From NCBI RefSeq assembly GCF_009711165.2, contig NZ_WMID02000009.1, positions 62,001 through 126,000 on the forward strand: a stretch of DNA of 64,000 nucleotides, written 5' to 3'. Both the position numbers and the translations under genes were made by a program. Below, one piece after another: positions 953 to 64,000 of the stretch; the stretch's first letter is position 1; each line of letters begins with the position of its first letter. This DNA is from Flavobacterium sp. MC2016-06 (GTDB lineage: Bacteria; Bacteroidota; Bacteroidia; Flavobacteriales; Flavobacteriaceae). Below the pieces are notes generated by a model that worked only from the letters and a program-made list of their open reading frames with translations, was not told the DNA's origin and did not search any database.

Positions 953-1957
953 TTACTTCTGAAAAACAACAGTACTTCCAGATGCGTTAACATCTATAGA
1001 AATAGTGTTTCCCATAATCAAAGCTCTATTGTCTTGAATATGTCCGGCGGGAAAATTAAAAATGACAGGAATGTTATATTTTTTGGTCACATCATCAACA
1101 ATTTCCTGAGCATTTTTACCCCACGGAACTTCGTTGTCTTTCATTTTTGACATACCACCAACAATGATTCCTTTAAGATTCTCAATACAGCCATTACGTC
1201 TTAAATTCATCATCATACGATCTATATGGTACAAGTATTCGTCTAAATCTTCAATAAATAAAATTTTATCCTTGCAATCTATGGCAGATGGTGAACCTAA
1301 AAGACTATATAAAATAGATAAATTTCCGCCCACTAATTCGCCAGTTGCTTTCCCAAAACGATTCATTTTATCTGGACCGACAGAATAGGAAAGTGGTTCG
1401 CCAAATAAACTAGATTTCATCGAACTAATTGCTGCAGGCGTTGCACGAGGAATTGTAACCGGCATTACACCATGAATAGATTTATAACCCATTGTGTTTA
1501 AATGATTGTGTAAAACAGTAACGTCACTAAAACCTACAACCCATTTTGGGTGTTGTTTAAATTTGGTAAAATCAAGTAAATCAACCATTCTAACCGTTCC
1601 GTATCCGCCGCGTACACACCAGATTGCTTTTATATTCGGATTGTCTAATTGATGCTGAAAATCAGCAGCACGCTGTTCGTCAGTTCCAGCAAGCTGATTA
1701 AAATCTAATCCAATAGAAGTTCCAACAACAGCTTCTAAACCCCAGCTGTGTAGTAAATCTATTGTTGGTTTTAGGTTATCGTCGATATTTTTTCTGGCAG
1801 TTGCTACAATGGCTACAGTATCTCCTTTTTGTAAATAAGGCGGTGTTATCATGATTTGTTGTGATTGACAGGTGAATGAATGTAAAGCAAAAATAAGAAA
1901 TAGGAATTTACAAAAAGCAAAACGTCTTTTTAAGTATAGGTAGCTGTTTCTATTCAT
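953..1957 (-). CDS. S66 family LD-carboxypeptidase-like protein (LdcA/MccF)
   Basis: The 334-residue protein carries the S66 serine peptidase triad: Ser144 in GFSDVT (the nucleophile elbow), Glu236 in LFIEDLDE and His306 in FPAGH. Family members cleave amide bonds next to a D- or C-terminal residue, as in LdcA trimming murein tetrapeptides or MccF inactivating microcin C. The first 33 residues form a hydrophobic export-type segment, so this member is probably exported, whereas the E. coli enzyme is cytosolic. An internal ATG at residue 36 (MITPPYLQKGD) would give a cytosolic form of classic length; I kept the upstream ATG because the intervening sequence is a plausible signal peptide. Murein recycling is the most likely role. 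Confidence 0.85.
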   Translation of the reverse strand: MNRNSYLYLKRRFAFCKFLFLIFALHSFTCQSQQIMITPPYLQKGDTVAIVATARKNIDDNLKPTIDLLHSWGLEAVVGTSIGLDFNQLAGTDEQRAADFQHQLDNPNIKAIWCVRGGYGTVRMVDLLDFTKFKQHPKWVVGFSDVTVLHNHLNTMGYKSIHGVMPVTIPRATPAAISSMKSSLFGEPLSYSVGPDKMNRFGKATGELVGGNLSILYSLLGSPSAIDCKDKILFIEDLDEYLYHIDRMMMNLRRNGCIENLKGIIVGGMSKMKDNEVPWGKNAQEIVDDVTKKYNIPVIFNFPAGHIQDNRALIMGNTISIDVNASGSTVVFQK

Positions 1958-1994
1958 AGTTTTGTATGCTAAAATTATTTAAAATGTAAGGTAT

Positions 1995-3068
1995 TTATCC
2001 ACCGTATTGTTGTTGCAATTTCCCCAAAAGCAGCATTAATCCTTTATCTGCTTCTTCAGATTGTACGTTGGCAAATAGTATAAATGCTTTATTAATTGAT
2101 GTACAAAGATACACTTTGGTTAAAAAGGTACCTGGGGTTCCGTTATGAAAAGAATATCGTAATTGATTATTTTCTTTAATTTCCCATTCCCATCCAAAAG
2201 CGAAATCTGGCAGACCATAATGCATATTATTAAACTCGGCAGCAGTTAATAGTTTTGATTTTCCTAATAATCCTTGAAGCTGCATTTGTGTAAATTTACA
2301 ATAATCAGGCAGACTAACATTAATATTTCCTGCCGAAGAAAGCCAATTTAGTTTATAATTTAAAGAAGGTTTTTCAGGTTCTAAATTTTCATCATGACCC
2401 CAAGGCTGTTTTTTATCTTTTAAATTAGGTGAACCAAAGTCAAAATCAATATCTAGAGATTTTCCTAATTCGTGTACTAAAGTTTCATAGGTTTTTCCGG
2501 TTGCTTTTTCGAGCATTAATCCTGCCGCAACATAACTCGGATTAGACCAATAAACGGGTTGTTTTTCTAAAACAGGATTTTGCTGTAAAAACCAAGCAAT
2601 AAATTGATATCGTTGCTGTTGATTATTTCCTTTGATCTCGTTTTGAGTTGGAGTTTCATTTCCATAAGACCAAATACCAAGATTAGCTCTAAAGGTTAAA
2701 AAATTCTGTAGTGTAAAGTTATAAGTTGCTGGATTACTTTTCGCTTTTAATTCGGGATATAAATCAAAAAATTTAGTGTTCCATTTTATCTTTCCTTGAT
2801 TTACCAAAAGTGTTGCAATATAACTTGTAATGGTTTTGGTTAAAGATCCTAAACGAAATTTATCATCAATTTTGGCCTTATAAGAACTATTGTAACGCTG
2901 CAATCCTAAAGATTGGATTTCAAATATTGAGTCTGATGAAACAACGGCGTATGCTAGTTCTGGAATTTTGTATTGTATTCTAATACTGTCTGCTAATGAG
3001 CTGTTCTTTTGCCCATAAAAAGTGGTTATAAAGCTTAAGAAAAAGGCAAAAACGAGGATTTTTTTCAT
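1995..3068 (-). CDS. Serine hydrolase, class C beta-lactamase/DD-peptidase family, exported
   Basis: Starting from ATG at 3066-3068 gives a signal peptide (MKKILVFAFFLSFITTFYGQ) and a 357-residue protein. The frame is open five codons further upstream to a TTG, but that start would spoil the signal peptide. The nucleophile motif is Ser75-Leu-Thr-Lys78 (GSLTKT); the second motif is the WSNPSY segment in the Y-x-N position, and HNGTPG fits the third H/K-x-G motif. The family (beta-lactamase PF00144) includes class C beta-lactamases, DD-peptidases and esterases, and the sequence does not decide between them. A promoter with TTG-N17-TATCTTTG lies just upstream. Confidence 0.85.
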   Translation of the reverse strand: MKKILVFAFFLSFITTFYGQKNSSLADSIRIQYKIPELAYAVVSSDSIFEIQSLGLQRYNSSYKAKIDDKFRLGSLTKTITSYIATLLVNQGKIKWNTKFFDLYPELKAKSNPATYNFTLQNFLTFRANLGIWSYGNETPTQNEIKGNNQQQRYQFIAWFLQQNPVLEKQPVYWSNPSYVAAGLMLEKATGKTYETLVHELGKSLDIDFDFGSPNLKDKKQPWGHDENLEPEKPSLNYKLNWLSSAGNINVSLPDYCKFTQMQLQGLLGKSKLLTAAEFNNMHYGLPDFAFGWEWEIKENNQLRYSFHNGTPGTFLTKVYLCTSINKAFILFANVQSEEADKGLMLLLGKLQQQYGG

Positions 3069-3119
3069 TTTATAGATTATCAAATTTTCTAAGCAAGTTA
3101 CAAGACATTCCTATAGTTA

Positions 3120-3147
3120 CAAAGATATAAATTGAAAAATAAAACAA
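3120..3147 (-). promoter_or_regulatory. Promoter of the serine hydrolase gene
   Basis: On the minus strand a -7 element TATCTTTG (3120-3127) follows a -33 TTG (3145-3147) with 17 bases between. This fits the Bacteroidota sigma-A pattern (TTG-N17-23-TAnnTTTG) and puts transcription start about 45 bases before the ATG. Confidence 0.55.
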
Positions 3148-3206: not shown

Positions 3207-4307
3207 ATGAAGATTGCTAGATTTTGTTTGTTTTTTCTTTTTTGTATTTCAATTTTAAAGGCACAGCCAAAAAGATATGCAATACATACTGTTGCTTTTT
3301 ACAATTTTGAAAATCTTTTTGATACCAAAGACGATGCATTTACTAATGATGACGAATGGACGCCAAACGGAGCCCAAAATTGGACGGAAGAAAAATACCA
3401 TCAAAAATTAAAAAACCTAGCTAGAGTTTTATCCGAAATTGGAACGCCGGAAAATCCTAATGCGCCAACGCTTATTGGAGGTTCTGAAATAGAAAATCGT
3501 GATGTTCTTGAAGATTTATTAAAAGAACCAAAATTACTTCCTTATGATTACGGAATCATTCATTTTGATTCGCCAGACAAACGCGGTATTGATGTCGCTT
3601 TACTCTATCAGAAAAAATATTTTAAACCTACTTCTTTTTCAAACATACCTTTATATATCTATAAAAATAAAGCTCCCATTAAGATAGAAAAAAAGGAAGA
3701 AACAGAAGAGGATGAAGTAGAAACTGTTACTCAAAATAACCGCATTTTTACCAGAGATCAGCTTCTGATAACAGGATTTTTAGAAGGCGAAGAAATAAGT
3801 ATTATTGTCAATCACTGGCCTTCGCGATCAGGAGGCGAAAAAGCCAGCAGTCCGTTTAGAGAAGCTGCCGGCAGATTAAACAGAAAAATTATCGATTCTT
3901 TGCTGCAAATAAACCCCAATGCCAAAGTCTTAACAATGGGAGATTTGAATGATGGCCCGTTTAACAAAAGCATTAAATTAGCTTTAGAGGCAAAAGCTAA
4001 AAAAGCTGAAGTTCCAGAATTTGGCATGTATAATCCGTTTGAAGAAATGGCAAATAAAGGAATGGGAACAATTGCTTTTAGGGATTCTTGGAATATTTTT
4101 GATCAAATTATAATGACTGAATCACTTATAAAATCTGATTTTTCATCTTTTAGATTTTGGAAAGCTGGTATCTTCAATAAACCTTATCTTATTCAGAATT
4201 CAGGACAATATAAAGGATATCCGATTCGGCATACTTTAACCGAAGTTGGTTTCAGTGATCACTTTCCTGTTTATGTTTATTTGATTAAAGAAATAAATTC
4301 GTTGTAG
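3207..4307 (+). CDS. Secreted endonuclease/exonuclease/phosphatase family protein
   Basis: The 366-residue protein begins with a signal peptide ending near KAQ (residue 19). The body carries the conserved EEP-fold signatures: FYNFENLFDT near the N-terminus, an acidic residue in GGSEIENRD, NHWPSRSGG, the metal-binding GDLND and the C-terminal SDHFPV. These residues are the usual catalytic Asp, Asn, His and Glu positions of Mg-dependent DNase I/phosphodiesterase-like enzymes. Secreted members in flavobacteria are thought to act as extracellular nucleases or phosphatases; the substrate cannot be read from the sequence. It stands alone on the plus strand and is convergent with nothing nearby. Confidence 0.85.
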   Translation: MKIARFCLFFLFCISILKAQPKRYAIHTVAFYNFENLFDTKDDAFTNDDEWTPNGAQNWTEEKYHQKLKNLARVLSEIGTPENPNAPTLIGGSEIENRDVLEDLLKEPKLLPYDYGIIHFDSPDKRGIDVALLYQKKYFKPTSFSNIPLYIYKNKAPIKIEKKEETEEDEVETVTQNNRIFTRDQLLITGFLEGEEISIIVNHWPSRSGGEKASSPFREAAGRLNRKIIDSLLQINPNAKVLTMGDLNDGPFNKSIKLALEAKAKKAEVPEFGMYNPFEEMANKGMGTIAFRDSWNIFDQIIMTESLIKSDFSSFRFWKAGIFNKPYLIQNSGQYKGYPIRHTLTEVGFSDHFPVYVYLIKEINSL

Positions 4308-4448
4308 CGATGGACTACAGTTTATTTTTTTTCTACACATCTTTCCAGTCAAAATCTGTAAAACATAACAAAGATGGGCAATAGAGCATCTTTACAAAAC
4401 AAAACTTTTCATTAACTTAGCGTTTGTAAAATCAGCACCTCAAATACA

Positions 4449-4988
4449 ATGTCTATAGCAAAACCTTTCAACCTTACTAATTGGATCGAAGAAAACCGTC
4501 ACTTACTAAAACCACCAGTTGGAAATAAAAATCTTTATGTAGATTCTGGCGATTATATCGTAATGATAGTTGCGGGTCCAAATGCCAGAAAAGATTACCA
4601 TTATAATGAAACCGAAGAGCTTTTTTATCAGCTTGAAGGAAGTATAAAAGTAGTAATTCAGGAAGATGGAGAGCGCAAAGAAATGGTTTTAAATGCGGGT
4701 GATATGTATCTTCATCCAGCTAAAATACCGCATTCACCAGTTCGTTCAGAAGGATCTATAGGTTTGGTAATTGAGCGCAAACGTGCTGGAAAAGGCTATA
4801 CAGATGGCTTACTTTGGCATTGCGATAATTGTAATCATAAACTATACGAAGTTCTTTTTGAATTGCATAATATAGAGAAAGATTTCTTACCTCATTTTGA
4901 ACATTTCTACAATTCATTAGAACTTAGAACTTGTGATAAATGCGGTACTGTAATGGAATCTGATCCAAGATTTGTTGCTAAGAAATAG
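4449..4988 (+). CDS. nbaC: 3-hydroxyanthranilate 3,4-dioxygenase
   Basis: This 179-residue cupin converts 3-hydroxyanthranilate to 2-amino-3-carboxymuconate semialdehyde in tryptophan (kynurenine pathway) breakdown. The Fe(II) ligands His51, Glu57 and His95 occur at the positions known from the Cupriavidus metallidurans enzyme, as do the substrate-binding Arg47 and Arg99. The C-terminal rubredoxin-like site is intact, with Cys125, Cys128, Cys162 and Cys165 in two CxxC pairs. Length is exactly that of the bacterial family. No other kynurenine-pathway gene lies next to it, so it appears as a single gene closed by a strong terminator. The symbol nbaC is a family name; other annotations use haao. 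Confidence 0.95.
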   Translation: MSIAKPFNLTNWIEENRHLLKPPVGNKNLYVDSGDYIVMIVAGPNARKDYHYNETEELFYQLEGSIKVVIQEDGERKEMVLNAGDMYLHPAKIPHSPVRSEGSIGLVIERKRAGKGYTDGLLWHCDNCNHKLYEVLFELHNIEKDFLPHFEHFYNSLELRTCDKCGTVMESDPRFVAKK

Positions 4989-50926: not shown

Positions 50927-50965
50927 AAAAATCCCGAATTCCTTAAATTGGAATTTGGGATTTTT
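50927..50965 (+). terminator. Terminator of the tetR-RND operon
   Basis: AAAAATCCCGAATTCC pairs with GGAATTTGGGATTTTT with one mismatch and a short loop, followed by a long T-run, 38 bases after the pump stop. The MFS gene start lies 35 bases beyond the hairpin, so read-through into it is possible. Confidence 0.8.
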
Positions 50966-50999
50966 TTTTTGTTTATTTGTATCTCATCTAAAAACTACT

Positions 51000-52238
51000 A
51001 TGCTACAAAAAAATAAGTCTGCCGCGATTGGTTTTATTTTTATAACCATGTTAATTGACATTACCGGATGGGGAATTATCATACCCGTAATTCCAAAATT
51101 GATAGAAGAGTTAATTCACGGCGATATTAGCGAAGCCGCTAAAATTGGCGGCTGGTTAACTTTCGCGTATGCGATAACTCAGTTTGTTTTTGCACCTGTT
51201 ATTGGAAATTTAAGTGATAAATATGGTAGAAGACCTATTATATTAATTTCGCTTTTTGGATTTTCATTAGATTATTTGCTGCTTGCTTTTTCTCCAACAA
51301 TTGCCTGGCTGTTTATAGGCCGAATTATTGCAGGAATCACTGGAGCAAGTATCACAACTGCTTCGGCTTATATTGCAGATGTGAGTACTGCCGAAAATAG
51401 AGCTAAGAACTTCGGTTTAATTGGTGCTGCTTTTGGTTTAGGATTTATTATTGGTCCTGTTATTGGCGGTTTATTAGGTCAATACGGTTCAAGAGTTCCG
51501 TTTTATGCTGCAGCCGTTTTGTGTATGGTTAACTTTCTGTATGGATTTTTTATTTTACCGGAATCACTTAAAAAAGAACATCGCAGAGAATTTGACTGGA
51601 AACGTGCAAACCCTATTGGTGCTATTTTAGGGTTAAGAAAACACCCAACTTTAATTGGATTAATTTCAGCTATATTTTTATTATATGTCGGCTCACATGC
51701 TGTACAAAGTAATTGGAGTTTCTTTACCATTTATCAATTCAATTGGGACGAACGAATGATCGGAATTTCTCTTGGAATAATTGGTTTATTAGTTGGGGTT
51801 GTACAAGGAGGATTAGTGCGCTGGATTAATCCGAAATTAGGAAACGAAAGAAGTATTTATATTGGTTTAGCCTTATACACCATCGGAATGTTGTTATTTG
51901 CTTTTGCTACAGAAAGCTGGATGATGTTTGTCTTTTTAATTCCGTATTGTCTTGGTGGCATTGCTGGCCCAGCATTGCAATCTGTCGTGGCTAGTAAAGT
52001 ATCACCAAGCGAACAAGGTGAAATTCAAGGAACATTAACGAGTTTAATGAGTGCGTCTGCAATTATTGGTCCGCCCATGATGGCGAACACATTTTACTTT
52101 TTTACGCATAGCGATGCACCTTTCAAATTTGCAGGAGCACCTTTTATATTAGGAGGAATTTTGATGTTATTGAGTACAATTGTTGCTTATTTTTCATTAA
52201 AGAAACATGTTGCTCCAAAAACAGAAAACAATCAATAA
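51000..52238 (+). CDS. MFS transporter, TetA/TCR-like
   Basis: From ATG 51000-51002 the protein has 412 residues; the upstream non-ATG extension would begin inside the terminator and is rejected. It has 12 hydrophobic segments with the DHA1 motif [12 protein letters not shown] after helix 2 and motif C-like [16 protein letters not shown] in helix 5. Annotated relatives are TetA-type tetracycline:proton antiporters, but such flavobacterial proteins have no proven tetracycline role. It follows the RND operon on the same strand and may be part of the same drug-defence set. Confidence 0.9.
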
Positions 52239-52311: not shown

Positions 52312-55300
52312 TTATTCTTTAATAATTTTCATTGATTTTTCTTTTCCGTCAGATTTTACATTTAAGAGGTAAACACCTGTTGAAAGATGTGATAAGTCAA
52401 TCTCAGAATGAGTACTATTTATCTTTTTAAATAAAACAGATTCCCCTGAAACAGTAAAGATTTGAACCTCATCAATTACAGAAGTATGATTAACTGTTAA
52501 TATGTTTTTTACTGGATTAGGATAAAATTTGAAACCAGATAAAGCAAAATCAGGTGTAGAAAGTGATCCATTTAATTTGGCTGTCACAGCAAGACGATTT
52601 TTACTTTCAATTCCGTTGATAGTTTGAGAAGCATAATAGGTTGTACCATTGACTAAAATAGTTGATAGAGGTAGAGCAGTTTCTAAAGTTTTATTTGTTG
52701 GAGTATTTTGAGAACTATACCATTTTATGTTTTCTCCTTCAACCGTAATAGCAGCTAAAGTTTGTCCAAGTTTAAATTCGTAAACAATCGCATTTTCACT
52801 TTCGCCTTCTACAATTGGTGCTGGCGGATCTATTGAAATATAGAACATTACAATACATCCATTTTCATCGCGCGCCATTATTTGATAAACACCAGGTACT
52901 AAATCTGAAAAGGTATTGTTATTTGAAAATTCATATAAACCAGGAGAAATTGCAAACATGATTGTTCCTGTTCCTCCTTGAGCATTTATAGTTGCAGTTT
53001 GATTCTGAACATTAATAACTGCGGTTAGTGGAGATACTGGTTGAGATATTGTATTTGTTACTATTGACATACATCCATTAGCATCCTTTACAGTTGTATT
53101 ATATGTGCCAGCATTTAAATTACTAAAAGTATCATTAGACTGAAATGGACTGCCATTAATTGAATAAAGATAAGGTGCCTGTCCTCCCATTGCCATAACT
53201 CTAATTACACCAGAGCTATCTCCATAACAGCGTATAGTATTTATTATTTGAGCTGTAATTACAGGAGCACTCACTTGATTAATAACTGCCTGCATAGATG
53301 TTGTAATATTTTGAGCATCTCGAACCATTATCATGTAATTACCTGGATACAAATTAGTAAATACATTTGTACTTCTATATGTAGCCCCATTGTCTAATGA
53401 ATATTGATATGGAGTTGTACCTCCCGTTGCATTTATCGTTATCGTTGCTCCAGCATTGCAAGTAGCTGATGTTGCAGTATAAGTTGCAGAAAGTGCAGGT
53501 TGTTTTACAATAGTTATAGCGCCTGGTGAAAATTCACAATTACTAGAATCGATAATTTTTACAATGTAAACACCAGAAGACAGATTGTTAAATACATTTG
53601 ATGTTTGATAACCAATGATTGGTACTCCATTGCTATTTCCAAGTGAATAGATATACGGAGCAGTTCCTCCATTTGCATTTACAGTAATAGTATTATTGGT
53701 AACCACAGCCGTTGATGTTAATTGATTAGGCTGACTTATTCTAACTGATACTATTGACTTACAAGCATAAGAATCCTTTACTGTAATAGTATAATCTCCA
53801 GCTTTCAGATTATTAAATACGTTTCCTTCCTGATAGATCAAATCATCCAGCGAATAGGTAAATGGTGCTTTTCCTCCAGAAGTATTTACTATAACTGAAC
53901 CATTGTTATTGCCAAAACAAGTTACATTCGAAATATACTGCGCAGTAATCGATGGTGGAATTGCAGCTCCAATAGTTAAGGACGCAAATGCTATAGTTCC
54001 TTTCGCATCTTTTACACGTGCAACATAAGGACCTGGATTTAATACAGCTGTGTTTGAAGTTGTATAAGTTGCTCCATTATCAAATGAATATTGATAAGGG
54101 GGGTTACCTCCAACTGCGTATGCAGTTACTGTTCCTGTAGGAGTGTAACATGTTGCAGGAGTTTCTGATGTTGCCAGGTTAAGTGGTGTTGTCTCGGGAA
54201 TAATTATGTTCTGTTGTAATGACGTACAGTTTCTTGAATCATTAATTATTATATTGTAAACACCCCCAGGGAGATCATTAAAGACATTAGATGTTTGAGG
54301 CGATCCTATTGACGTGCCATAATAATCTTGAAGTGTATAGGTATAAGGAGCAGTTCCACCTGTTGCATTCACAGTAATTGTTTCGTATTCAACCGCAGCT
54401 GTAGATGCGAGTACAGCAGGTTGTGATATTGTGTAAGTCATGTTGGAAATACATTCGTTACTGTCTTTTACTCTTATCATGAAAGTACCTGGAAAAAGAT
54501 TTGTAAAAGTAGCACTAGATTGAAAAGGACCCAAATTAAATGAATAAAGATATGGTGCTTTTCCTCCTACAGGAATTACTTGTATTACAGCATCATTACT
54601 GCCATAACATTTTACAGGAGAAACAAGAGCAGTGGTAACTGTTATAGGATCTAAAGGAGCCAAAACGGTTGAAAGACTAAAAATACGTCCCTGTGCATCT
54701 CTAACCTTCATTGCGTAATTTCCAGGAATTATACCTGTGACAACATTTGAAGAAGAATAATTAGCTCCATTATTAAAAGAATAAGAGTATGGTTTACTGC
54801 CTCCAACAGCATTTATAGTAATTGATGGCGCTACGCTAGTACAGGTAATAGGTATTGTGACAGCAGTAGCAAAAAGGGCTGTTGAAGAAACTGTTATTCC
54901 AGTTTTAGTTGCTGTGCATCCTCTTGAGTCGGTGATAATTGCGCTGTAAGTTCCCATTGGTAAACCTGCAAAAACATTAGAATTTTTTGGAGGACTTAGT
55001 AATACGTCATTTTGATCTTTAATAGCAAAAAGATAAGGAAGAACCCCGCCAGAAGGAGTAATTGTTATTTTACCGTCAGTGATGAACGGTGTTGTACTAT
55101 TTACAACAGTTGTATTCAATACTAATACAGCAGGCTGTGTTACTGAAAGTTTTATTGAACTTATGCACCCTGCCGCATCTTTTACGCTTGCAGTATATTG
55201 TCCAATTGATAAATTTGTAAAAATATTAGTTGTGCTATATCCATTTCCTAGAGAATAAGTATAAGGTGCAGTTCCTCCGCTATTCACAGATATTTCTATC

Positions 55301-58242
55301 ATTCCATTTTGAGCGCCATTACAGCTTATATGGGTAGTAACTGTTTTCATGCTTACGTTCGTATATGGTTTTAGATCATAACTAATCCAGCCTATGTTAC
55401 CAAGAGCGTCTTTTACATAAAAATTAGTATTTCCAGCGGCTAAATTGACAGTATTATTGGTAGAATAAGTTTTCCCTGAATCATACGAATATTGATACGG
55501 AGCAGTTCCTCCAGAAGCATTAATAGTCATCGTGGCAGTACTATTTGTACAGCTTAAAGGTGTACTATTAACTGCATTTATTAAAATAGGAGTAGGTAAT
55601 ACAATTGCCACGTCTACATTTTCAGATTTACACCCATTAGCATCTTTAACAGTTATAGAATAATTACCTGTGGGCAATCCATTATAGATTATTGCGGTGA
55701 GATCTTCAAACATTATCTCACCTGTAGCGCTTTTTTTTAAGGTATAATAATAAGGAGCAGTTCCTCCAGCTGGATTTACTTTTACGACTCCTCCAATTTG
55801 ACCATTATTAGTATCGTATGAGACATTTGCCGTCATAGTTACAGGAATATATGGTTTTACAATAATATGAGCTTGAGCTTCATTACCAATAGCATCCTCC
55901 ATAAGTATAGAGTAAGTTCCTGCTGTTAAATTAGACAAACCAGGATTACTGCTTGTAAAAGTCGAGCCATTGTCATAGGAATAAAGATAAGGAGGTACAC
56001 CACCAGAAGGATTTATAGTTAAGGAAGCAGTATTGTTTTGACAAGTTATAGGAGTTTTAACAGTATTCAAAATAATTGGGTTTGCCAGTGACAAGATTAG
56101 GTTATTGTTTTCTGCCTTACATCCATTAGCATCTGTAACACTCATAGTGTAAGAACCGGCAAGCATGCCTTTAAAAACCTTAACACTAGAGTTATCAGCT
56201 ATTATACTGCCTGTATCATTATTTCTTAAAGAATATTTATAAGGCGCAGTACCTCCAGAAGCACCTGCGAATATTGTTCCGCCTATTTGCCCGTCATTGT
56301 TTATTGTCTTAATGTCCAGACTCATTACTAATGGAGCATCAGGCTGAGAAACTGCTGCCACAAAAGATCTGTCACAATTTGCGGCATCTTTAATAGTGAT
56401 TATATAATTTCCAGCTTCTAAAGAAGCGAAAACATTATTTGTTGAAAATGAAGAACCATTTAGCGAATAAAGGTATGGAGCTGTACCGCCAGAAACAGCT
56501 GCAGTAATTTTTCCTGAAGCAGAACCATAACAGGTTGCGTTGTTCGTATTTATTGTAGCTATTAAAGGCTCTGGTGGAGCAATTTTTTGAGACATACTTA
56601 TCATACATCCCTGATTATCTGTTACGGTTATTTGATAATCTCCCGCAAATAAACCGCTAAAGACATTACTTGTTTGATAGCCGTTTCCAATTGAATAGAT
56701 ATAAGGTGGATTTCCTCCTATTGCTGTAACAGCAGCAATAGCACCATTACCATTGCATTCTAGAGGTTTAGTTATAGCTGTTGTCATTACTAATGGAGTG
56801 GCTGGCTCTACAATCAATTGTGTTGTGTAGATACAGTTGCCTGCATCTCTAATCCTTATAGTATATGATCCTGCATATATGTTAGTAAATAGATTTGAAG
56901 ATTGGTAAGTTATCCCGTTATTTAATGAATATTGATAAGGAGCTATACCGCCTGCAGCATTTACTGTAATTGTTGAGACAGGAGTACTAGAACATTGGCT
57001 AATTTTAGTATGAGTTACCGTTGCAGTTAAATTAATTAATGGAGCAACAACTATAGAATTTGTTACATCACAATTACCAGCATCTCTTGTGTTAATAATG
57101 TAGACTCCTGCTGTCAAATTAGAAAAAACATTAGCGGCCTGATAGGGGCTGCCATTTATTGAATATACATAAGGAGCTATTCCTCCCGATGACATAACAC
57201 GTAATGTAGCATTACTTACACAATCTAATGGTTTTGTAATTACTGCTGATGTAACTAAAGCAGACGGAGTATTTATAGCAATTTGAGTTGGCGCCTCAAA
57301 ATTCTGAGCATCCTTAACTTTTATTGCATAAGTTCCAGCAGGAAGATAATTAAAAACATTTGAAGACGTATAATTAACTCCGTTATTGATTGAATAACTG
57401 TATGGAGGTGTTCCTCCTGTTGCAGTAACTGTTATAGTTGACGTAGCCCCAAAACAATTTATAGCACTAGCTGTGGCAATTACAGCAAGAGGGGCTGGTG
57501 CCGAAATAACTATGTCGTTTTGTGTTGCGAAACATTCGTTAGTATCTTTAACATAAACTGTATAACTTCCTGGAGCTAAATTTGAAAAAATATAGCTAGC
57601 CTGATAATTAATTCCATCCAAAGAGTATTGGTAAGGATAAGTCCCTCCATTCGCAATAATAGTTATGTTTTTATCTTCGATAAGAGGAATTATTGATATC
57701 GGTGTTGGCTGACTAAGAAAAGTATCAACCATTGCCGTACATCCAAGAGCATCAGTAACGCTGACATTGTAATATCCTGCAACTAAATTATTGTAGGAGT
57801 TAGTACCGGGTAGTGACTGTCCATTTAAGCTATAAACAAAAGGAGCTTTTCCTCCAGATGCGGTTGCATTTATAGATCCTGTTTCATCTTTACAAGTAAT
57901 TGTCTTAGTTTCTATTGAAACTGCTAAAGGTGCATATAGAACCAAATTAAAATAATTTGTTGTAATAGTTCCGTTATTGTCTATTCTGGCATAAATAGTT
58001 TTAGAACCAGTAGAACTAGCATATTGATTTGGCGCAGCAATTGCATTAGCATTATTATTTGCATCATCAAGACTTAAATGATAGCTGATAGTGGTTTCTG
58101 CAGGATTTAAATTCCCTAGTAAAAGAGGCTTATTAAGGTTTAAATTAAAATTAGTGTCACCTGCACAATGCTCAATATCATTAACTTGGGCATAAAATAA
58201 ATTTGAAAGAAGAAAAAGAAAACAAAGTAGAGTTTTTTTCAT
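52312..58242 (-). CDS. Giant secreted protein with 22 SprB-like repeats and T9SS sorting domain
   Basis: The 1976-residue protein has a signal peptide (MKKTLLCFLFLLSNLFYAQ), an N-terminal beta-rich domain (20-110), 22 consecutive SprB-type repeats of 70-84 residues (113-1810), an Ig-like domain (about 1811-1903) and a T9SS type A sorting domain (1904-1976, beginning FKFYPNPV). Each repeat has the core GG-x-x-PY-x-YS, then an S-x-x-F-x-x-L-x-x-G-x-Y step and V-x-D-x-x-x-C. SprB of Flavobacterium johnsoniae is the mobile surface adhesin of gliding; this protein is shorter but of the same make. It should be exported by T9SS and anchored or released at the surface. It has its own -7 element and lies downstream of the protease genes on the same strand. 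Confidence 0.9.
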   Translation of the reverse strand: MKKTLLCFLFLLSNLFYAQVNDIEHCAGDTNFNLNLNKPLLLGNLNPAETTISYHLSLDDANNNANAIAAPNQYASSTGSKTIYARIDNNGTITTNYFNLVLYAPLAVSIETKTITCKDETGSINATASGGKAPFVYSLNGQSLPGTNSYNNLVAGYYNVSVTDALGCTAMVDTFLSQPTPISIIPLIEDKNITIIANGGTYPYQYSLDGINYQASYIFSNLAPGSYTVYVKDTNECFATQNDIVISAPAPLAVIATASAINCFGATSTITVTATGGTPPYSYSINNGVNYTSSNVFNYLPAGTYAIKVKDAQNFEAPTQIAINTPSALVTSAVITKPLDCVSNATLRVMSSGGIAPYVYSINGSPYQAANVFSNLTAGVYIINTRDAGNCDVTNSIVVAPLINLTATVTHTKISQCSSTPVSTITVNAAGGIAPYQYSLNNGITYQSSNLFTNIYAGSYTIRIRDAGNCIYTTQLIVEPATPLVMTTAITKPLECNGNGAIAAVTAIGGNPPYIYSIGNGYQTSNVFSGLFAGDYQITVTDNQGCMISMSQKIAPPEPLIATINTNNATCYGSASGKITAAVSGGTAPYLYSLNGSSFSTNNVFASLEAGNYIITIKDAANCDRSFVAAVSQPDAPLVMSLDIKTINNDGQIGGTIFAGASGGTAPYKYSLRNNDTGSIIADNSSVKVFKGMLAGSYTMSVTDANGCKAENNNLILSLANPIILNTVKTPITCQNNTASLTINPSGGVPPYLYSYDNGSTFTSSNPGLSNLTAGTYSILMEDAIGNEAQAHIIVKPYIPVTMTANVSYDTNNGQIGGVVKVNPAGGTAPYYYTLKKSATGEIMFEDLTAIIYNGLPTGNYSITVKDANGCKSENVDVAIVLPTPILINAVNSTPLSCTNSTATMTINASGGTAPYQYSYDSGKTYSTNNTVNLAAGNTNFYVKDALGNIGWISYDLKPYTNVSMKTVTTHISCNGAQNGMIEISVNSGGTAPYTYSLGNGYSTTNIFTNLSIGQYTASVKDAAGCISSIKLSVTQPAVLVLNTTVVNSTTPFITDGKITITPSGGVLPYLFAIKDQNDVLLSPPKNSNVFAGLPMGTYSAIITDSRGCTATKTGITVSSTALFATAVTIPITCTSVAPSITINAVGGSKPYSYSFNNGANYSSSNVVTGIIPGNYAMKVRDAQGRIFSLSTVLAPLDPITVTTALVSPVKCYGSNDAVIQVIPVGGKAPYLYSFNLGPFQSSATFTNLFPGTFMIRVKDSNECISNMTYTISQPAVLASTAAVEYETITVNATGGTAPYTYTLQDYYGTSIGSPQTSNVFNDLPGGVYNIIINDSRNCTSLQQNIIIPETTPLNLATSETPATCYTPTGTVTAYAVGGNPPYQYSFDNGATYTTSNTAVLNPGPYVARVKDAKGTIAFASLTIGAAIPPSITAQYISNVTCFGNNNGSVIVNTSGGKAPFTYSLDDLIYQEGNVFNNLKAGDYTITVKDSYACKSIVSVRISQPNQLTSTAVVTNNTITVNANGGTAPYIYSLGNSNGVPIIGYQTSNVFNNLSSGVYIVKIIDSSNCEFSPGAITIVKQPALSATYTATSATCNAGATITINATGGTTPYQYSLDNGATYRSTNVFTNLYPGNYMIMVRDAQNITTSMQAVINQVSAPVITAQIINTIRCYGDSSGVIRVMAMGGQAPYLYSINGSPFQSNDTFSNLNAGTYNTTVKDANGCMSIVTNTISQPVSPLTAVINVQNQTATINAQGGTGTIMFAISPGLYEFSNNNTFSDLVPGVYQIMARDENGCIVMFYISIDPPAPIVEGESENAIVYEFKLGQTLAAITVEGENIKWYSSQNTPTNKTLETALPLSTILVNGTTYYASQTINGIESKNRLAVTAKLNGSLSTPDFALSGFKFYPNPVKNILTVNHTSVIDEVQIFTVSGESVLFKKINSTHSEIDLSHLSTGVYLLNVKSDGKEKSMKIIKE
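52813..57906 (-). repeat. Array of 22 SprB-like protein repeats
   Basis: Coding repeats of 210-252 bases fill this span. The repeats are diverged at the DNA level. From residue 886 onwards they alternate in a three-module order (A-B-C, four times). A modules have NNG-x-x-Y or DNG-x-x-Y after the core and usually V-K/R-DA. B modules have an early Cys and end in SQP or TQP. C modules lack the early Cys. Confidence 0.9.
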
Positions 58243-58268
58243 AAAAATATATTTGTTAAATAGCCTAA

Positions 58269-58276
58269 CAAATATA
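58269..58276 (-). promoter_or_regulatory. -7 element of the SprB-repeat gene
   Basis: TATATTTG on the minus strand fits TAnnTTTG about 27 bases upstream of the ATG at 58242, so the adhesin gene can be transcribed on its own. Confidence 0.45.
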
Positions 58277-58348
58277 ACAGAATAAATATTGTTAAAATTA
58301 AGGTTTCCCGTAAAAGCGTAAAAAAATTGAAAGCCAAAGTGAAAACTT

Positions 58349-58786
58349 CTACTTCAAGTACAAATAATGATTATAATAATCAATAATCGCCTTTCCTTCC
58401 AGCAAAACATCCGCGCCAATAATGCCATGAACAGGCTTAGTTTTGTACGATGCCAGAGCTTCATTAACATGCGAAAGATCAAAAATAACAATACTAAAAT
58501 CTTTGTTTTTCCAGCTGCCAACCTGTAATTTGTTATGAGAAGAAATTTGAGTTTCCATTCCCGTTGCGCCAGCGCCAGAAGCCTTGGTTTTAGATTGCTT
58601 TGCCTGCAATTCAAAATGTTCAATACTTTCAAACCCGATGCAGGAATTAGAAGCACCGGTATCTAAAATGAAACTTCCAGAAATACCATTGATTTTTGCC
58701 TTAATCGCTAAATGCTGTGTTTTGGTAATTTTGAATTTTATTTTTTGGTATTTTTCTTTTTTGAGAAGTTTTTGAAGATTTTCCAT
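58349..58786 (-). CDS. Retropepsin-like aspartyl protease family protein
   Basis: The 145-residue protein is one retropepsin-like (clan AA) domain. The catalytic Asp42 lies in LDTGAS, followed by a flap-like Gly-rich segment (SGAGATGM, about 70-77), and the hydrophobic-hydrophobic-Gly motif GIIGADVL near residues 120-127. A single domain of this size must act as a homodimer, as retroviral proteases do. No signal peptide is seen, so it is likely cytosolic. The start lies 49 bases inside the 3' end of the upstream CHAT gene in another frame, pointing to translational coupling. Confidence 0.85.
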   Translation of the reverse strand: MENLQKLLKKEKYQKIKFKITKTQHLAIKAKINGISGSFILDTGASNSCIGFESIEHFELQAKQSKTKASGAGATGMETQISSHNKLQVGSWKNKDFSIVIFDLSHVNEALASYKTKPVHGIIGADVLLEGKAIIDYYNHYLYLK

Positions 58787-61389
58787 TTTTTATAGGGATT
58801 GAAAACCAAAAATAAACCAATTAGCGTCAATAAACTAATGATGTAGACGATATAATTTGAAGAATTTTCAGACTCAGAAATAGTTCCATAATACACAAAA
58901 GCACTCCAATAATAAGGTGATTTTTTAGCATTTGGAATATTCGGATCGTTTAGGAAATCTCTTTTAGCGTTAGCATTTGCTTCAAAATAAGGCTGTTTGT
59001 TTTTGATGTTTTTGTAGAAATCATCCATAAAAACAGAAGTCGTATAATCATTTACTTTCCATAAAGAAAAAAGTAAATTCTGTGCGCCGGCAAACTGAAA
59101 ACCTCTTGCAACGCTCATTGCACCTTCTGCTTTATACATTTTTCCAATTCCAGTTTCGCAGGCACTTAAAACCACTAAATCGGGATTTATATTAAGATTG
59201 TACAACTCCGAATATAATATTTCCTGATCGTAGAATTTAATACTTGCAGGAGTTTCTAAATCGCCAGAAGAAGCGTGCGTGCTCAAATGTAGAATAGAAT
59301 AATGAGAAGCATTCTTTTTGAAAGCAGCAAAACCAGCATCTGAATTTTCTAAATATTTTCCTTTAAAATTATTTCGAATGGATTCTAATTCTTTCTTCGA
59401 ATAACTTAATTCAAAAGCGGTTTTCTCGAAAACTGGGAAAATCCCTAAAACAGTCTTTTCTGATTTTGAGATTGGTTTTGAATTTAGATAAATGTTTGCA
59501 GAAGTATTATATGCGATTTTGAAATCATTCAATAAATAATGCATTTTTGCAAAATTGGTTGTGTTTGATTTGTTAGTAATTAAAGCTTCAAACGGCAGGA
59601 AATTTAAAATTCCGTCAGGAACAATAACGAGATTTTGATAAAGATAATTGGTTGGTAAATTTAATAAATCATAAGCTGCTTTTCCAGCACTGTTGTAACC
59701 CGAAATGTCATTTGTAATCGAATTTGCATCGTTGAAGTAATCTATGAATCGCACAATTGTATACATTTTCCCATCACCTATAGGAACTCGATTTAGAAAA
59801 ATTCGATTATTTTCTAAAATGAAATAATACAATTTTTCAGCACCCATAAAATAATAAACCATAATCGCTTTATCATTTTTTAATTTTGAAAACAATGCTT
59901 TCAAATCGCAGTCTTCGGGAATATAATCTGCCTTTTTAGATTGTGTTTCTTTCAGCGAAAGCATCAATTCACTTTGTTTCTTTATGAGTTGATTTATTTC
60001 TGAAATATTAGCTAAATCGCCCTTTTGCTGTTCTTTTAAAATGGAGTTATTTAAATTTTGGAGTTGAAATAATAACTGTTTTTCTTCTATTGAAGCATTT
60101 TTGATATTAGAACGATAACTTTTTAAAATTCCAGATTTTGTTCTTTCAGACAATTGAAAGGCTTTTTTTAAATAGTCAGCTTTGTTTTCCTTCTGGTATA
60201 AATCATTATAAATAGAAATACACTTTTCTGTTCGATTTCTTGCTCGCAGTTGTGCAATGATTTTTGAGTTTTCGTAAATCAAAGAATTCATTACTAAATC
60301 TTCAATATAAAAAGAAAGTTCAAATGCTTGTAATGCTTTTTTGGGTTGCTTAAATTGCAAGATTTCTGCCTGCAAATCGAGCGCATCAATTAAAACCGTT
60401 TCAGCATATAGCTGGTTCTGATTTGGGAGCGTATTTTTTGTATTATAATTAGGAATTAGAGTTCTAAAAACAATAGAAATTTGCTTTGTACTTTCATCGT
60501 ATTTACTTTCATCAAAAAGCAATAACGCTTTCTCGTAATACAATTTTGCAAGTTTTCTAGGCTGTTGATTTTTTGTTTCTAAAAACAGTTTTTCAGCTTT
60601 GTCTAAATAAAAATGCGCTATTTCGAAGTTTCTTCTTTGGCGGTTAAAAGAGGCGAGACTTCTATAAGAATTGGATAAAGTCTCCGATTGTTCTTTTTCA
60701 TTTTTCAAATATTTTATGGAAGATTCAAATGCATTTTCAGCTTTTCTGCTTATTTCGGGAATTAATAGATTTCCACCTGAACTTAGTAAATAATTATTTC
60801 CTAGATTATTCAACAAAACGCCTTTTTGAGAATTTGATAATTTCTCTGTTTTCAAAGTATTTTCTAATAATTCAATTGCTAGAGAAGTTTTTCCAGAACT
60901 CTGATAAACATTAGACAAATTCAGAATTGCGGCCACTTTCTGCGATTCATTTTTCTGTAGATTGGCAATAAAGTAATATTGTTTTATGGTGTTTTCAGCA
61001 TTATCACAATCGCCCAAAATAGTATATAAATTCCCCAAAGGTTTCAGACAATATTCAATTATATCGTAATTCTTAAGTTTGTTTATCTGATAAAGCTGCC
61101 AAGCCTTCTCGTAGCTTTTTATAGCATTTCCAGATTGCCCAAATTGATTTTCGTAATAGGCTTTATTGCAGTTTAAAACCACAATTGCCAGAAGTTCAGC
61201 TGTAGATTTTGATTTAGAACTTTTCCAGAAATCAGCTTCAGTATTCGTTAAATTTTGTAACGCTTCCGCGGAAGGAGCAGCGACGAAACTATCAACAGCA
61301 TTATATATTTTATCCTCTTGAGAAACAGATTGCTGTCCGAATAAAATCAGAGTTGAAAAGAACAATATAAAGCAGTACAATTTTGTCAT
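58738..61389 (-). CDS. TPR-CHAT protease, exported and membrane-anchored
   Basis: The 883-residue protein has a signal peptide (MTKLYCFILFFSTLILFGQQ), tetratricopeptide repeats over about residues 70-420, a coiled-coil stretch (about 430-490) and a caspase-like CHAT domain (about 570-840). The catalytic dyad is visible as His705 in LHLSTHASSG and Cys744 in LSACETGIG. A hydrophobic helix (about 846-864) followed by a Lys-rich tail (KKWKIFKNFSKKKN) ends the protein, which puts the CHAT domain outside the cytoplasm. TPR-CHAT proteins elsewhere are proteases switched on by partner binding (Craspase, bacterial gasdermin systems), but those are cytosolic. The gene overlaps the retropepsin gene downstream and follows the PKD/barrel gene by 160 bases. 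Confidence 0.88.
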   Translation of the reverse strand: MTKLYCFILFFSTLILFGQQSVSQEDKIYNAVDSFVAAPSAEALQNLTNTEADFWKSSKSKSTAELLAIVVLNCNKAYYENQFGQSGNAIKSYEKAWQLYQINKLKNYDIIEYCLKPLGNLYTILGDCDNAENTIKQYYFIANLQKNESQKVAAILNLSNVYQSSGKTSLAIELLENTLKTEKLSNSQKGVLLNNLGNNYLLSSGGNLLIPEISRKAENAFESSIKYLKNEKEQSETLSNSYRSLASFNRQRRNFEIAHFYLDKAEKLFLETKNQQPRKLAKLYYEKALLLFDESKYDESTKQISIVFRTLIPNYNTKNTLPNQNQLYAETVLIDALDLQAEILQFKQPKKALQAFELSFYIEDLVMNSLIYENSKIIAQLRARNRTEKCISIYNDLYQKENKADYLKKAFQLSERTKSGILKSYRSNIKNASIEEKQLLFQLQNLNNSILKEQQKGDLANISEINQLIKKQSELMLSLKETQSKKADYIPEDCDLKALFSKLKNDKAIMVYYFMGAEKLYYFILENNRIFLNRVPIGDGKMYTIVRFIDYFNDANSITNDISGYNSAGKAAYDLLNLPTNYLYQNLVIVPDGILNFLPFEALITNKSNTTNFAKMHYLLNDFKIAYNTSANIYLNSKPISKSEKTVLGIFPVFEKTAFELSYSKKELESIRNNFKGKYLENSDAGFAAFKKNASHYSILHLSTHASSGDLETPASIKFYDQEILYSELYNLNINPDLVVLSACETGIGKMYKAEGAMSVARGFQFAGAQNLLFSLWKVNDYTTSVFMDDFYKNIKNKQPYFEANANAKRDFLNDPNIPNAKKSPYYWSAFVYYGTISESENSSNYIVYIISLLTLIGLFLVFNPYKKWKIFKNFSKKKNTKK

Positions 61390-61410
61390 TTAAAAGAGGT
61401 GATTTTTTTT

Positions 61411-61494
61411 GCCACGAATTTCACGAATTTCCACAAATTTTTTGAGCCACTATTTTAAACTTTTTAATTCGTGAAAATTCGTGAAATTCGTGGC
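61411..61494. repeat. Perfect 20-bp inverted repeat between the PKD/barrel and CHAT genes
   Basis: GCCACGAATTTCACGAATTT (61411-61430) recurs as its exact complement at 61475-61494, with a 44-base centre. The arm is made of a doubled CACGAATT word. A further word-like tail (TCTCTGCGAAAACTTTGTGC and neighbours) runs to about 61540. The style matches the element at 867-919. Confidence 0.8.
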
Positions 61495-61549
61495 AAACTT
61501 TCTTCGTGTATCTCTGCGAAAACTTTGTGCATCTCTGTGTAATATACTA

Positions 61550-63502
61550 TTAAAACTTCCAGATTCCATAAAACTGAAAATAATTAAAATTCTGCTCAAA
61601 GTTAATGACGTACCTCGCGCCCAAACTCGGGCCAATTCTTACCGCTCCAATAGTCAAGTCTAATAACAATCCAGTTTTTAAATTAGTAAACGAATTTTTT
61701 ACAGCATTTGAATTGTTTACCGTTTCCAACACAATTTTATCCGAATCGCCTTCAAAAGTTTCAATTTTGATACTTTGATTTTCTTCTTGCGAAACATTGA
61801 AATTAGCCTGCAAACCCGCGCCAACGCCAATATAATTATTAATGTTGTAGCGAATAAGAACAGGAATTTCCCAATTCACGCTTTTATTTTCAGTGCTTGT
61901 AGTCGTTCGCTGTCTTTGTTTTACACCATTTGCATTAGTAATAACGGCATCAACTACACTTTCGGCACTGTCGTATTTATTGATGCTGTTGAGCCATTCT
62001 GCCTGCCAATAAAAACGATAGGATTTAAAAGGAGAAATTGTCGCTCCAACAAAATAACTCGTCGAATTGTCTAAATCAGGATATAAATTGTAACCTGCTT
62101 TTGCACCAATCGATATTCCTGGAGAAAATCGGGTAGTGGCATAGTTGGTAATGATAGGTTCGTTTTTATCAAAAATAATGGCTGTTCTGCTTTTGGTTTT
62201 TACTTTATGAAAGTCTTTGTTAAACTTCATCGAATATTTTACAAAACCCTTTGTACTGTCTTTTTCCTGTACATTTTTCTGCTCACTTCCAGGCAGATAA
62301 ATATTTTTGAAAGTAAAAAAGATTTGTTTTTGTTTAATAATCGTATCGAGGCAGCTTGTGGTTGGTTCTTCGCCTTTTGGACAAATTGGACATTCTGGAT
62401 ACATGCTTTCGATCTGAAATGTTTTCTTGTCAAACATGTCTGGAATATCCGTTTCCAGTCGAATCATTCTTGCTGGACCTTCGCCGTTGTTTTGAAAGCG
62501 GGTTTTAAAATTCACTCTTTTAAAACGCACCAATCTATAACTCATAAAACTCCCATTAGAACCCATTTTATTTGGATCGTGAGACGTTACAATTTCCATT
62601 TCGAGGTTTTTTACTTTGTGGTTTTTAAAACTTCTATTTGGCACAAAAATCCCGCGCATGGTAACCGTAGCGCTGGTATCTTTAATCATTTCTGGAGTAG
62701 TTTTAAACGTATAAAAAATATTCCGAGTTTCACTTGGGTTTGCATCATCAAATTCTAAAACAGAAACATTATGATACGTTTTATGCGCATCGGCCAATGA
62801 AGCGTCGAGATCTTCTTCCGTCGTTGTGTTTCTGTATTTTTTGATTTTAAAAGTGTTTTCGGCAGAAGCCAAATACGACTTTGTATCATCAAGATCCTCA
62901 ACCGAAGCGATAGTATTTTCTTTTACCTCGCGTTCGTTAGCATAAGTTCTAAAATCGACTAATTCAAAATTATTGCTTTTAAACTGTTTCTCATTATAAA
63001 ATAAATACAGTTTGCCGCTGGCAACATAATTTTCTAAATTTTGATAACTCACAACAACTACCATTTCTTGTTCTGGAATTGGGTCACAGTTTTTTAAAAT
63101 CGCAAAACCGTTTTGATCTGCTATTGATGCGATGTCTTTGTAATTAGTATCGGTAATATCATTTACTGCAACTTTTTTAGGACGCGTTGCCGGAGGTTTT
63201 CCGTTGTCGTAATTGTTAGTTACGGCAAGTCTTGCGGTATAAGTTCCTTTGTTTTTATACACATGTTTTGGCTGTGCTTCTTTGCTGTAATGTCCGTCGC
63301 CAAGTTCCCATAAATAAGAATAACTTGGTTTTGGCGCACCAGCAATCGGAATTAAAGGCGGTGTTTCGGGTTTAAAAGTAACCTGATTTCCGTTTTGATT
63401 GTAAATGATATTGGCTCTTCGGGTGATGGTGTCTTTTGCTTTGGTCTGCGAAAACGCCATTGTCGATAAAAGAAAAATTAAATAATAAAAATGTCTTTTC
63501 AT
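61550..63502 (-). CDS. PKD-domain protein with C-terminal outer-membrane beta-barrel
   Basis: The 650-residue protein has a signal peptide (ending AFSQ, residue 19), a PKD domain (about 28-113, with YLWELGDGHYS and HVYKNKGTYTARLAV), a long mixed region of beta-sandwich type (about 115-455, with Cys in YPECPICPKGEE) and a C-terminal part (about 458-650) of alternating strands like a small outer-membrane barrel, ending in FQFYGIWKF with a terminal Phe. It probably sits in the outer membrane with the PKD region on one face. It is the first gene of the four-gene same-strand set with the CHAT, retropepsin and SprB-repeat genes. An interspersed hairpin element ends 17 bases before its ATG. Confidence 0.82.
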   Translation of the reverse strand: MKRHFYYLIFLLSTMAFSQTKAKDTITRRANIIYNQNGNQVTFKPETPPLIPIAGAPKPSYSYLWELGDGHYSKEAQPKHVYKNKGTYTARLAVTNNYDNGKPPATRPKKVAVNDITDTNYKDIASIADQNGFAILKNCDPIPEQEMVVVVSYQNLENYVASGKLYLFYNEKQFKSNNFELVDFRTYANEREVKENTIASVEDLDDTKSYLASAENTFKIKKYRNTTTEEDLDASLADAHKTYHNVSVLEFDDANPSETRNIFYTFKTTPEMIKDTSATVTMRGIFVPNRSFKNHKVKNLEMEIVTSHDPNKMGSNGSFMSYRLVRFKRVNFKTRFQNNGEGPARMIRLETDIPDMFDKKTFQIESMYPECPICPKGEEPTTSCLDTIIKQKQIFFTFKNIYLPGSEQKNVQEKDSTKGFVKYSMKFNKDFHKVKTKSRTAIIFDKNEPIITNYATTRFSPGISIGAKAGYNLYPDLDNSTSYFVGATISPFKSYRFYWQAEWLNSINKYDSAESVVDAVITNANGVKQRQRTTTSTENKSVNWEIPVLIRYNINNYIGVGAGLQANFNVSQEENQSIKIETFEGDSDKIVLETVNNSNAVKNSFTNLKTGLLLDLTIGAVRIGPSLGARYVINFEQNFNYFQFYGIWKF

Positions 63503-63594: not shown

Positions 63595-63637
63595 CTGAAA
63601 ATTATCAGAACTGATTGTAAAACAGATTAAATGTAAA

Positions 63638-63666
63638 AAAAAGTGATGAGCAAATCACCACTTTTT
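63638..63666 (-). terminator. Terminator of the right-edge gene
   Basis: AAAAAGTGATGA pairs with TCACCACTTTTT with one mismatch around a 5-base loop and ends in a T-run on the minus strand, 20 bases past the stop at 63687. Confidence 0.8.
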
Positions 63667-63686
63667 CTTAAAAAGTATTTTGTAAG

Positions 63687-64000
63687 TTACTGAATAGCAT
63701 TGATTGCTGCTACCAGTTGTGCTTCTGTACCGACTGTTGTTTCGGCAAGAGTGAAAGTGTAAACATCGCCCGCAGCTACTGTCACGCCTTTGATTGCGTA
63801 ACGCCATTGACCATTATCTTCGGTTGCAAAAATCACGTGACAAGCTAAACCAATCGGAATTTGTCCGTAGTGTTCGCTAAACAATCCTGCAGCAGTATAA
63901 GTGTCTAATTTTGCCAATGCATTTGTTCCTTCGCCATCGTAAGACAAATAAATTGCACTGTTCGTATTATCATAACCATCAGGAGCATCTGCCAGAATAG
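63687..64000 (-). CDS. Unrecognised protein, C-terminal part (runs off right edge)
   Basis: A frame of 104 codons is open from the right edge of the window to the stop at 63687-63689, so the start lies outside. The visible part is beta-rich and acidic (for example YDGEGTNALAKLDTYTAAG, GQWRYAIKGVTVAAGDVYTF) and ends EAQLVAAINAIQ. An internal TTG at 63945-63947 is open as a start but the frame runs through it with similar sequence, so the gene is taken as truncated by the window. I recognise no family; it looks like a small secreted or structural beta protein. A terminator follows. Confidence 0.6.
   Translation of the reverse strand, partial: ILADAPDGYDNTNSAIYLSYDGEGTNALAKLDTYTAAGLFSEHYGQIPIGLACHVIFATEDNGQWRYAIKGVTVAAGDVYTFTLAETTVGTEAQLVAAINAIQ

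Follow-up and report, generated by a model that had tools for sequence, protein, structure and literature searches.

The locus considered here raises the question of which genes accompany an exported protease of the tetratricopeptide repeat (TPR)-CHAT type, and of what such a protease may cut. It lies in a stretch of 64,000 nucleotides from Flavobacterium sp. MC2016-06 (contig NZ_WMID02000009.1, positions 62,001 to 126,000 of the forward strand), referred to here as the window, which we read together with flanking DNA past its edge (locus L072) from a source genome of 6.17 Mb. The initial annotation had described four genes on one strand, encoding a PKD/beta-barrel protein, the TPR-CHAT protease, a retropepsin, and an SprB-repeat adhesin, as a possible adhesin-maturation system, and all four open reading frames (ORFs) are present on the minus strand at the positions given. 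The conserved unit is nevertheless a different one, half of which sits outside the window edge. Sequence comparison identifies a cassette of a divergent extracytoplasmic function (ECF) sigma factor, a putative anti-sigma factor with a single transmembrane (TM) segment and a TPR tail (the TM-TPR protein), a lipoprotein, a PKD/DUF7849 protein, and a predicted exported, membrane-anchored TPR-CHAT protein. We consider it reasonably probable that the core of this cassette is an envelope-to-transcription signaling system, in which CHAT serves as the site-1 protease of the anti-sigma factor and so releases the ECF sigma factor.

Conservation was assessed in two samples. A family set of 149 Flavobacteriaceae genomes was searched for CHAT and partner genes, and 17 orthologous cassette loci were taken from other genomes (L033 to L049, the family-set loci). 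A named set comprises at least 80 loci, mostly from Flavobacterium; its counts are among these listed loci, with 73 loci that have at least 6 kb of upstream DNA used for upstream counts and 75 that have at least 4 kb of downstream DNA for downstream counts. The sigma, TM-TPR, lipoprotein, PKD/DUF7849, and CHAT genes are all present in 17 of 17 family-set loci, and the 73 named-set loci keep PKD in every case, sigma and TM-TPR in 71 each, and the lipoprotein in 68. Downstream, the family-set loci carry the retropepsin in 15 cases, a LuxR-type response regulator in 11, and SprB in one, from the same genus; the 75 named-set loci carry the retropepsin in 71, with an SprB gene directly next in 19 (497 to 2284 residues) and within 6 kb in 22. 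The lipoprotein and the sigma/putative anti-sigma pair have a firmer place in the unit than either the retropepsin or the adhesin. The initial annotation had proposed to judge its four-gene grouping by co-occurrence, with independent occurrence in related genomes counting against it. On that measure the four-gene unit does not stand, whereas its PKD-CHAT core holds together.

The sigma factor is assigned to the ECF group by its region 2 (Sigma70_r2, 1.9e-5, 24.8 bits against a cut-off of 24); the match to Sigma70_r4 is weak (0.012, 15.6 bits against a cut-off of 24.1), and the sigma profile matches the ECF factor SigL in the PDB at 3.7e-4. Encoded with it, the TM-TPR protein displays the architecture of a membrane anti-sigma factor, with an N-terminal domain of four predicted helices (residues 3 to 74), one predicted TM segment, and a far-side C-terminal domain; the whole-protein fold matches listed were TPRs. 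In 5 of 17 clade-1 proteins the TM segment scores under the cut-off, as it does in the protein of the window genome itself, the AlphaFold model of which has a separate helix at residues 88 to 105. Orthologues of the sigma factor (>277 bits) and of the TM-TPR protein (>268 bits) occur in 19 genomes each, every one of them cassette bearing. Its architecture and gene neighborhood lead us to read the TM-TPR protein as a putative anti-sigma factor.

The CHAT protein matches Pfam CHAT at 1.2e-43, with TPR models under their cut-offs; when the PDB was searched with a profile of the whole alignment, the matches listed, the best 60 of 62, fell on the TPR part, and a CHAT-only profile was used instead. 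A CHAT domain with a His/Cys dyad stands behind a TPR solenoid in the structure model (predicted local distance difference test, 81.4), and His701, His705, and Cys744 show no variation among the aligned orthologues (18 of 18), which bears out the earlier description of a TPR-CHAT protein with His705/Cys744. Outside the genus, these orthologues are only 34 to 38% identical to the window protein. Of 37 CHATs from two clades, 36 have a C-terminal TM segment with a cationic tail and 35 begin with a hydrophobic stretch; CHAT should therefore face the periplasm, the orientation initially suggested. Within the family set, a CHAT homologue occurs in 68 of 149 genomes and this orthologue in 21 (18 full length or nearly so, 3 fragments). 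The source genome encodes a second CHAT protein (L051:5707-10992) of 1761 residues, with DUF7379, LCAT-like, and TPR-S matches, which is unlike that of the cassette. In the adjoining PKD protein, Pfam detects PKD_4, DUF7619, and DUF7849 (9.5e-69), so that the PKD part of the original PKD/beta-barrel label is sound; the barrel part rests on a weak barrel-type NCBIfam match of DUF7849 (4.6e-4, far under its cut-off). In the family set, 20 of 149 genomes encode DUF7849, each time next to this CHAT clade, and, taken with the retention of PKD in the named set, this identifies PKD/DUF7849 and CHAT as an obligate pair on genomic grounds.

The link between CHAT and the sigma pair extends beyond the cassette. 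Across the 149 genomes, 55 of 58 TM-TPR family members (E ≤ 1e-20) have a CHAT homologue no more than 7.5 kb away, against about 0.45 expected if genomes of 3.8 Mb are presumed; the count covers all 58 TM-TPR rows and 103 of 105 CHAT rows, the two weakest, TPR-only CHAT rows being omitted. A second, broader CHAT clade (L052 to L071; about 909 to 1035 residues) also adjoins sigma and TM-TPR genes. There, a sigma gene is nearby in 19 of 20 loci, the sole cassette link retained, and no PKD/DUF7849 or lipoprotein match is found in these loci. The partner that the two CHAT clades share would therefore be the sigma pair. The linkage of CHAT and TM-TPR recurs in genomes at the class level, for example in 8 of 14 places in genome G149, in a check of 21 places (22 rows, two merged) chosen by eye as mostly roughly full-length open frames; this left out most rows outside G149, which were short, TPR-only matches. 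At two distant loci, L185 and L190, a weak PKD-profile match lies close to CHAT. A conserved arginine in the TM-TPR family was rejected as proof of a cut site, as [RM][GSA] is also present in members not near CHAT and the Craspase sites are not conserved; the 89 clade-1 sequences used for this probably count one genome twice, as L033 and L097, whose contigs are equally long.

A candidate output of the pathway is indicated by a promoter motif. The interval between the sigma and lipoprotein genes holds GGGTAACA-N13-15-TTGATAT, pointing at the lipoprotein gene and with GGGTAACA often in two to three copies, a promoter motif of the ECF type. In its strict form it is present in 16 of 18 cassette genomes and in 0 of 18 cassette-free genomes. 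Of 24 strict sites, 20 are at the cassette (14 genomes), and each of the remaining four precedes a gene read as encoding an exported protein: one of 372 residues with a tail like those recognized by the type IX secretion system (T9SS), lipoproteins of 193 and 156 residues, and a 379-residue curlin-like repeat protein. A loose form, GGTAAC-N13-18-T[TA]GA, lies upstream of 59 of 72 lipoprotein genes (GGGTAACA upstream of 68 of 72), and was found upstream of none of the genes for sigma (0/72), PKD (0/75), CHAT (0/80), retropepsin (0/75), SprB (0/19), or tatD (0/66); GGGTAACA alone precedes 1 of 75 PKD genes. A looser motif scan, confined to the source genome, was set aside: it found 4 sites, of which 2 lie at the cassette, and the backwards control had 5. 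From this co-distribution, it can be hypothesized that the cassette sigma factor reads the GGGTAACA/TTGATAT motif. Between two motif copies upstream of the lipoprotein lies a small ORF of about 100 codons (L072, about 2810 to 3120, minus strand), and ORFs of similar size occur in L100, L101, L112, and L124.

The lipoprotein itself has an invariant lipobox cysteine, Cys21 (17 of 17 aligned), and no Pfam or PDB match. It has 1,988 homologues; the names among 120 listed are mostly "hypothetical protein," with a few "Fimbrillin family protein" or "Lipoprotein." Two cassette-less relatives (L090:5888-6889 and L091:5564-6580) show no GGTAAC-type site in the 400 bp upstream. Terminator-like hairpins follow 70 of 72 lipoprotein genes, 1 of 75 PKD genes, 1 of 80 CHAT genes, and 33 of 72 anti-sigma genes, with 22 in 800 random windows. 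Together with the motif distribution, this suggests that the cassette is probably expressed as three separate units, namely sigma-anti-sigma, the lipoprotein, and PKD-CHAT-retropepsin.

When these observations are combined, a pathway can be proposed. The ECF sigma factor would be held by the membrane anti-sigma factor through a cytosolic N-terminal helical domain, connected by one TM segment to a periplasmic TPR domain. After export, the TPR-CHAT protein would be held in the inner membrane by its C-terminal TM segment and would face that TPR domain. A cell-surface signal, probably relayed by PKD/DUF7849, would activate CHAT to cut the anti-sigma factor on the periplasmic side as the site-1 cleavage, and further trimming would then free the sigma factor. 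Its targets would be the surface lipoprotein gene, transcribed from the tandem GGGTAACA/TTGATAT promoters, and in some genomes genes for additional exported proteins. The cleavage of the anti-sigma factor by CHAT and the role of PKD/DUF7849 as sensor are steps that we infer. The proposal as a whole draws on features read from sequence and its comparison: which genes are present and linked, the predicted topology, the conservation of active-site residues, and the motif with the genes behind it. The linkage is weaker when counted from the CHAT side: 56 of 103 CHAT rows have a TM-TPR family gene within 7.5 kb, and many CHATs may therefore act elsewhere or have a more diverged partner.

Other explanations have to be set against this pathway. 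It is conceivable, if unlikely, that CHAT cuts another periplasmic or outer-membrane client, such as the lipoprotein or the PKD protein, as an output or feedback of the sigma pathway, with a different protease acting on the anti-sigma factor. In favor of this, the motif mainly precedes the lipoprotein gene, which is inherited together with the cassette. A 554-residue PDZ-S41 peptidase, encoded between the anti-sigma gene and tatD in the window genome (L072:4770-6434, past the window edge), could also be the protease that cuts the anti-sigma factor in genomes that encode it, with a relative in 30 of 80 listed named loci. However, that relative is found in only 1 of 17 family-set loci (from the same genus), loci of the second CHAT clade have the sigma pair but no lipoprotein or PKD match, a terminator-like hairpin divides the lipoprotein from PKD-CHAT, and the motif precedes neither PKD nor CHAT. 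Less likely again, CHAT may be a pseudo-enzyme and act as a scaffold, binding the anti-sigma factor and passing on a signal without cutting: the long TPR solenoids of the two proteins could bind each other and CHAT is an enzyme by prediction, yet the invariance of His701, His705, and Cys744 despite the low identity outside the genus speaks against this reading.

CHAT proteases recur in cell-death and defense systems such as gasdermin or Craspase, and the CHAT fold matches Csx29, so a phage-triggered abortive-infection module of this effector type might be envisaged. We regard it as very unlikely here, because CHAT has an export signal and a TM segment, and the cassette keeps to one place in the chromosome, where decayed remnants of it are also seen, and does not show the pattern of a mobile element. 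Cas and gasdermin families were not detected among the scanned cassette, retropepsin, and SprB proteins (for Cas, the four window proteins, lipoprotein, sigma, and TM-TPR, with genes farther away not scanned). Assignment to a known defense system was likewise rejected, as PADLOC gave CHAT only a generic TPR model and the retropepsin a weak match to the candidate model PDC-M08B (1.1e-8). The slimmest chance is left to the model first put forward, in which a periplasmic CHAT brings about maturation or release of the SprB-type adhesin and the PKD/barrel protein acts as its sensor. The gene product is indeed, as annotated, a T9SS-exported protein of 1976 residues (SprB repeats in 20 stretches, 3.3e-116; T9SS sorting domain, 3.9e-13, type A in NCBIfam) and is the neighbor in part of the named set. 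Yet it is not next in 56 of 75 loci and is nearly absent from the family-set loci, the loose promoter precedes none of its 19 genes, and SprB-repeat matches are present on nine other contigs of the genome (one under cut-off); the adhesin was rejected as the CHAT target on these linkage and promoter counts. In genome G096, a 1320-residue reprolysin-like metallopeptidase (L034:11888-15850) takes the place of SprB after the retropepsin.

The retropepsin is best considered together with its chromosomal site. This protein (Asp_protease_2, 6.2e-13; no TM segment found) has the single-lobe D-T-G-A/S signature of clan AA, its DTGAS being invariant in 17 of 17 aligned, and its gene overlaps that of CHAT, as had been described, by 49 bp. 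It was ruled out as an obligate cassette partner, since the family is present in 144 of 149 genomes, cassette or none, and at the sucB/tatD site without the cassette (names such as sucB and tatD were assigned by reading sequences). We compared 18 retropepsin places without an adjacent cassette, from 16 cassette-free genomes and from G074 and G094, which have theirs elsewhere; at L089 of G094, the ORF caller missed a retropepsin that the family search places there. These places have tatD in 17 cases and sucB in 15, frequently a response regulator, and no CHAT, PKD, sigma, or anti-sigma match. In cassette genomes, the cassette sits between the retropepsin and tatD, the latter lying past the anti-sigma gene in 65 of 69 named-set loci; of the 17 family-set loci, 14 contain tatD and three (L038, L040, and L042) do not. 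At that site, G003 has a truncated sigma gene with a full-length anti-sigma gene and G122 a broken anti-sigma gene with five stops, neither with CHAT there. From these remnants, the cassette therefore looks old at this site and lost by decay. The overlap of the CHAT and retropepsin genes may be a by-product of position, or it could couple their translation. The retropepsin profile also weakly matches the ApRick protease and retroviral-like aspartic protease 1 in the PDB.

Coordinates are collected in the table below. Between the PKD and CHAT genes, at 61411-61494, are two exact inverted copies of AATTCGTGAAATTCGTGGC, the only ones in the window, which look like a dispersed palindromic repeat. 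The ORF at 50955-52238 encodes an MFS (major facilitator superfamily) transporter that the Tet(A)/(B)/(C)/(D) family model matches at 342 bits, under its cut-off of 475.

Table. Features of the cassette and its neighbors, in window numbering (continued past the edge as window-equivalent positions) and in locus L072
Feature	Window position	L072 position	Strand	Remarks
SprB-repeat T9SS type A surface protein	52312-58242		-	1976 aa; optional neighbor outside the conserved unit
Retropepsin-like aspartic protease	58349-58786		-	145 aa; overlaps CHAT gene by 49 bp
TPR-CHAT protease	58738-61389		-	883 aa; signal-like N-terminus, C-terminal TM 845-863, cationic tail, His705/Cys744
PKD-DUF7619-DUF7849 exported protein	61550-63502		-	650 aa; proposed outer-membrane sensor
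Terminator-like hairpin and T-run ending the lipoprotein unit	63634-63670		-	Hairpin test
Lipoprotein gene, 3' end	63687-64000, onward to ~64670 (window-equivalent)	1688-2671	-	327 aa; partial ORF at window edge
Sigma factor	~65243-65824 (window-equivalent)	3244-3825	+	193 aa; beyond window edge
Putative anti-sigma factor (TM-TPR)	~65831-66559 (window-equivalent)	3832-4560	+	242 aa; beyond window edge

Comparison with known systems places the proposed pathway in context. In E. coli, according to the part of the source consulted, the envelope-stress-sensing protease DegS cuts the membrane anti-sigma factor RseA, and the ECF factor RpoE is eventually freed (PMC10028731). The cassette would differ in having a CHAT cysteine protease where DegS stands and in a signal path that includes PKD/DUF7849; no DegS-type (trypsin-fold, PDZ) protease was found in the eight proteins scanned, the peptidases among which are CHAT, the retropepsin, and PDZ-S41. 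EACC2-caspase systems, as far as the portion of the paper used here describes them, place a caspase-fold protease beside ECF sigma and TPR (DUF1822) genes (PMC8195603). They resemble the cassette in that arrangement and differ in their other domains and genes, and the same portion sets them among apoptosis and immunity systems.

Closer parallels are offered by DdvA and Craspase. DdvA is described, in the sections consulted, as the anti-sigma factor of the ECF factor DdvS in Myxococcus xanthus (PMC4374960), and the accessible parts of the literature on it yielded nothing on whether it cuts anything. In PDB entries 8rot and 8rw5, the 991-residue chain of DdvA carries the name CHAT domain-containing protein. 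The segments ATHGK and AACEGG of this chain align with STHAS and SACETG of the cassette CHAT, and DdvA is the second-best Foldseek match of the cassette CHAT model; anti-sigma and CHAT are joined in one chain in DdvA and occupy two in the cassette. The best match is Csx29, in keeping with the analogy drawn initially. In the type III-E CRISPR system CASP, which comprises the TPR-CHAT protease Csx29, Csx30, and CASP-sigma, Csx29 cuts Csx30, the sigma inhibitor (PMC10028731, in the part available). CASP is triggered by RNA via Cas7-11, whereas the cassette CHAT is predicted to be exported and membrane anchored, and the putative inhibitor in the cassette has a TM segment and a TPR tail, unlike a cytosolic substrate of the Csx30 type. 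A broader reading, which we offer tentatively and which falls somewhat short of probable, is that CHAT is the site-1 protease of a widespread Bacteroidota envelope sigma pathway, a split, CRISPR-free counterpart of DdvA and Craspase, with a conserved juxtamembrane Arg/Met-Gly site as the likely scissile bond and type III-E systems having borrowed an old principle. If true, this would provide a class of site-1 protease for Bacteroidota envelope sigma factors. The promoter motif and the candidate targets make the proposed pathway directly testable, and genetics is feasible since one cassette locus (L103) belongs to a Flavobacterium johnsoniae strain. Should CHATs control membrane anti-sigma factors, the puzzling cut that Craspase makes in a sigma inhibitor would have a parallel in nature that involves no CRISPR and is open to genetic analysis.

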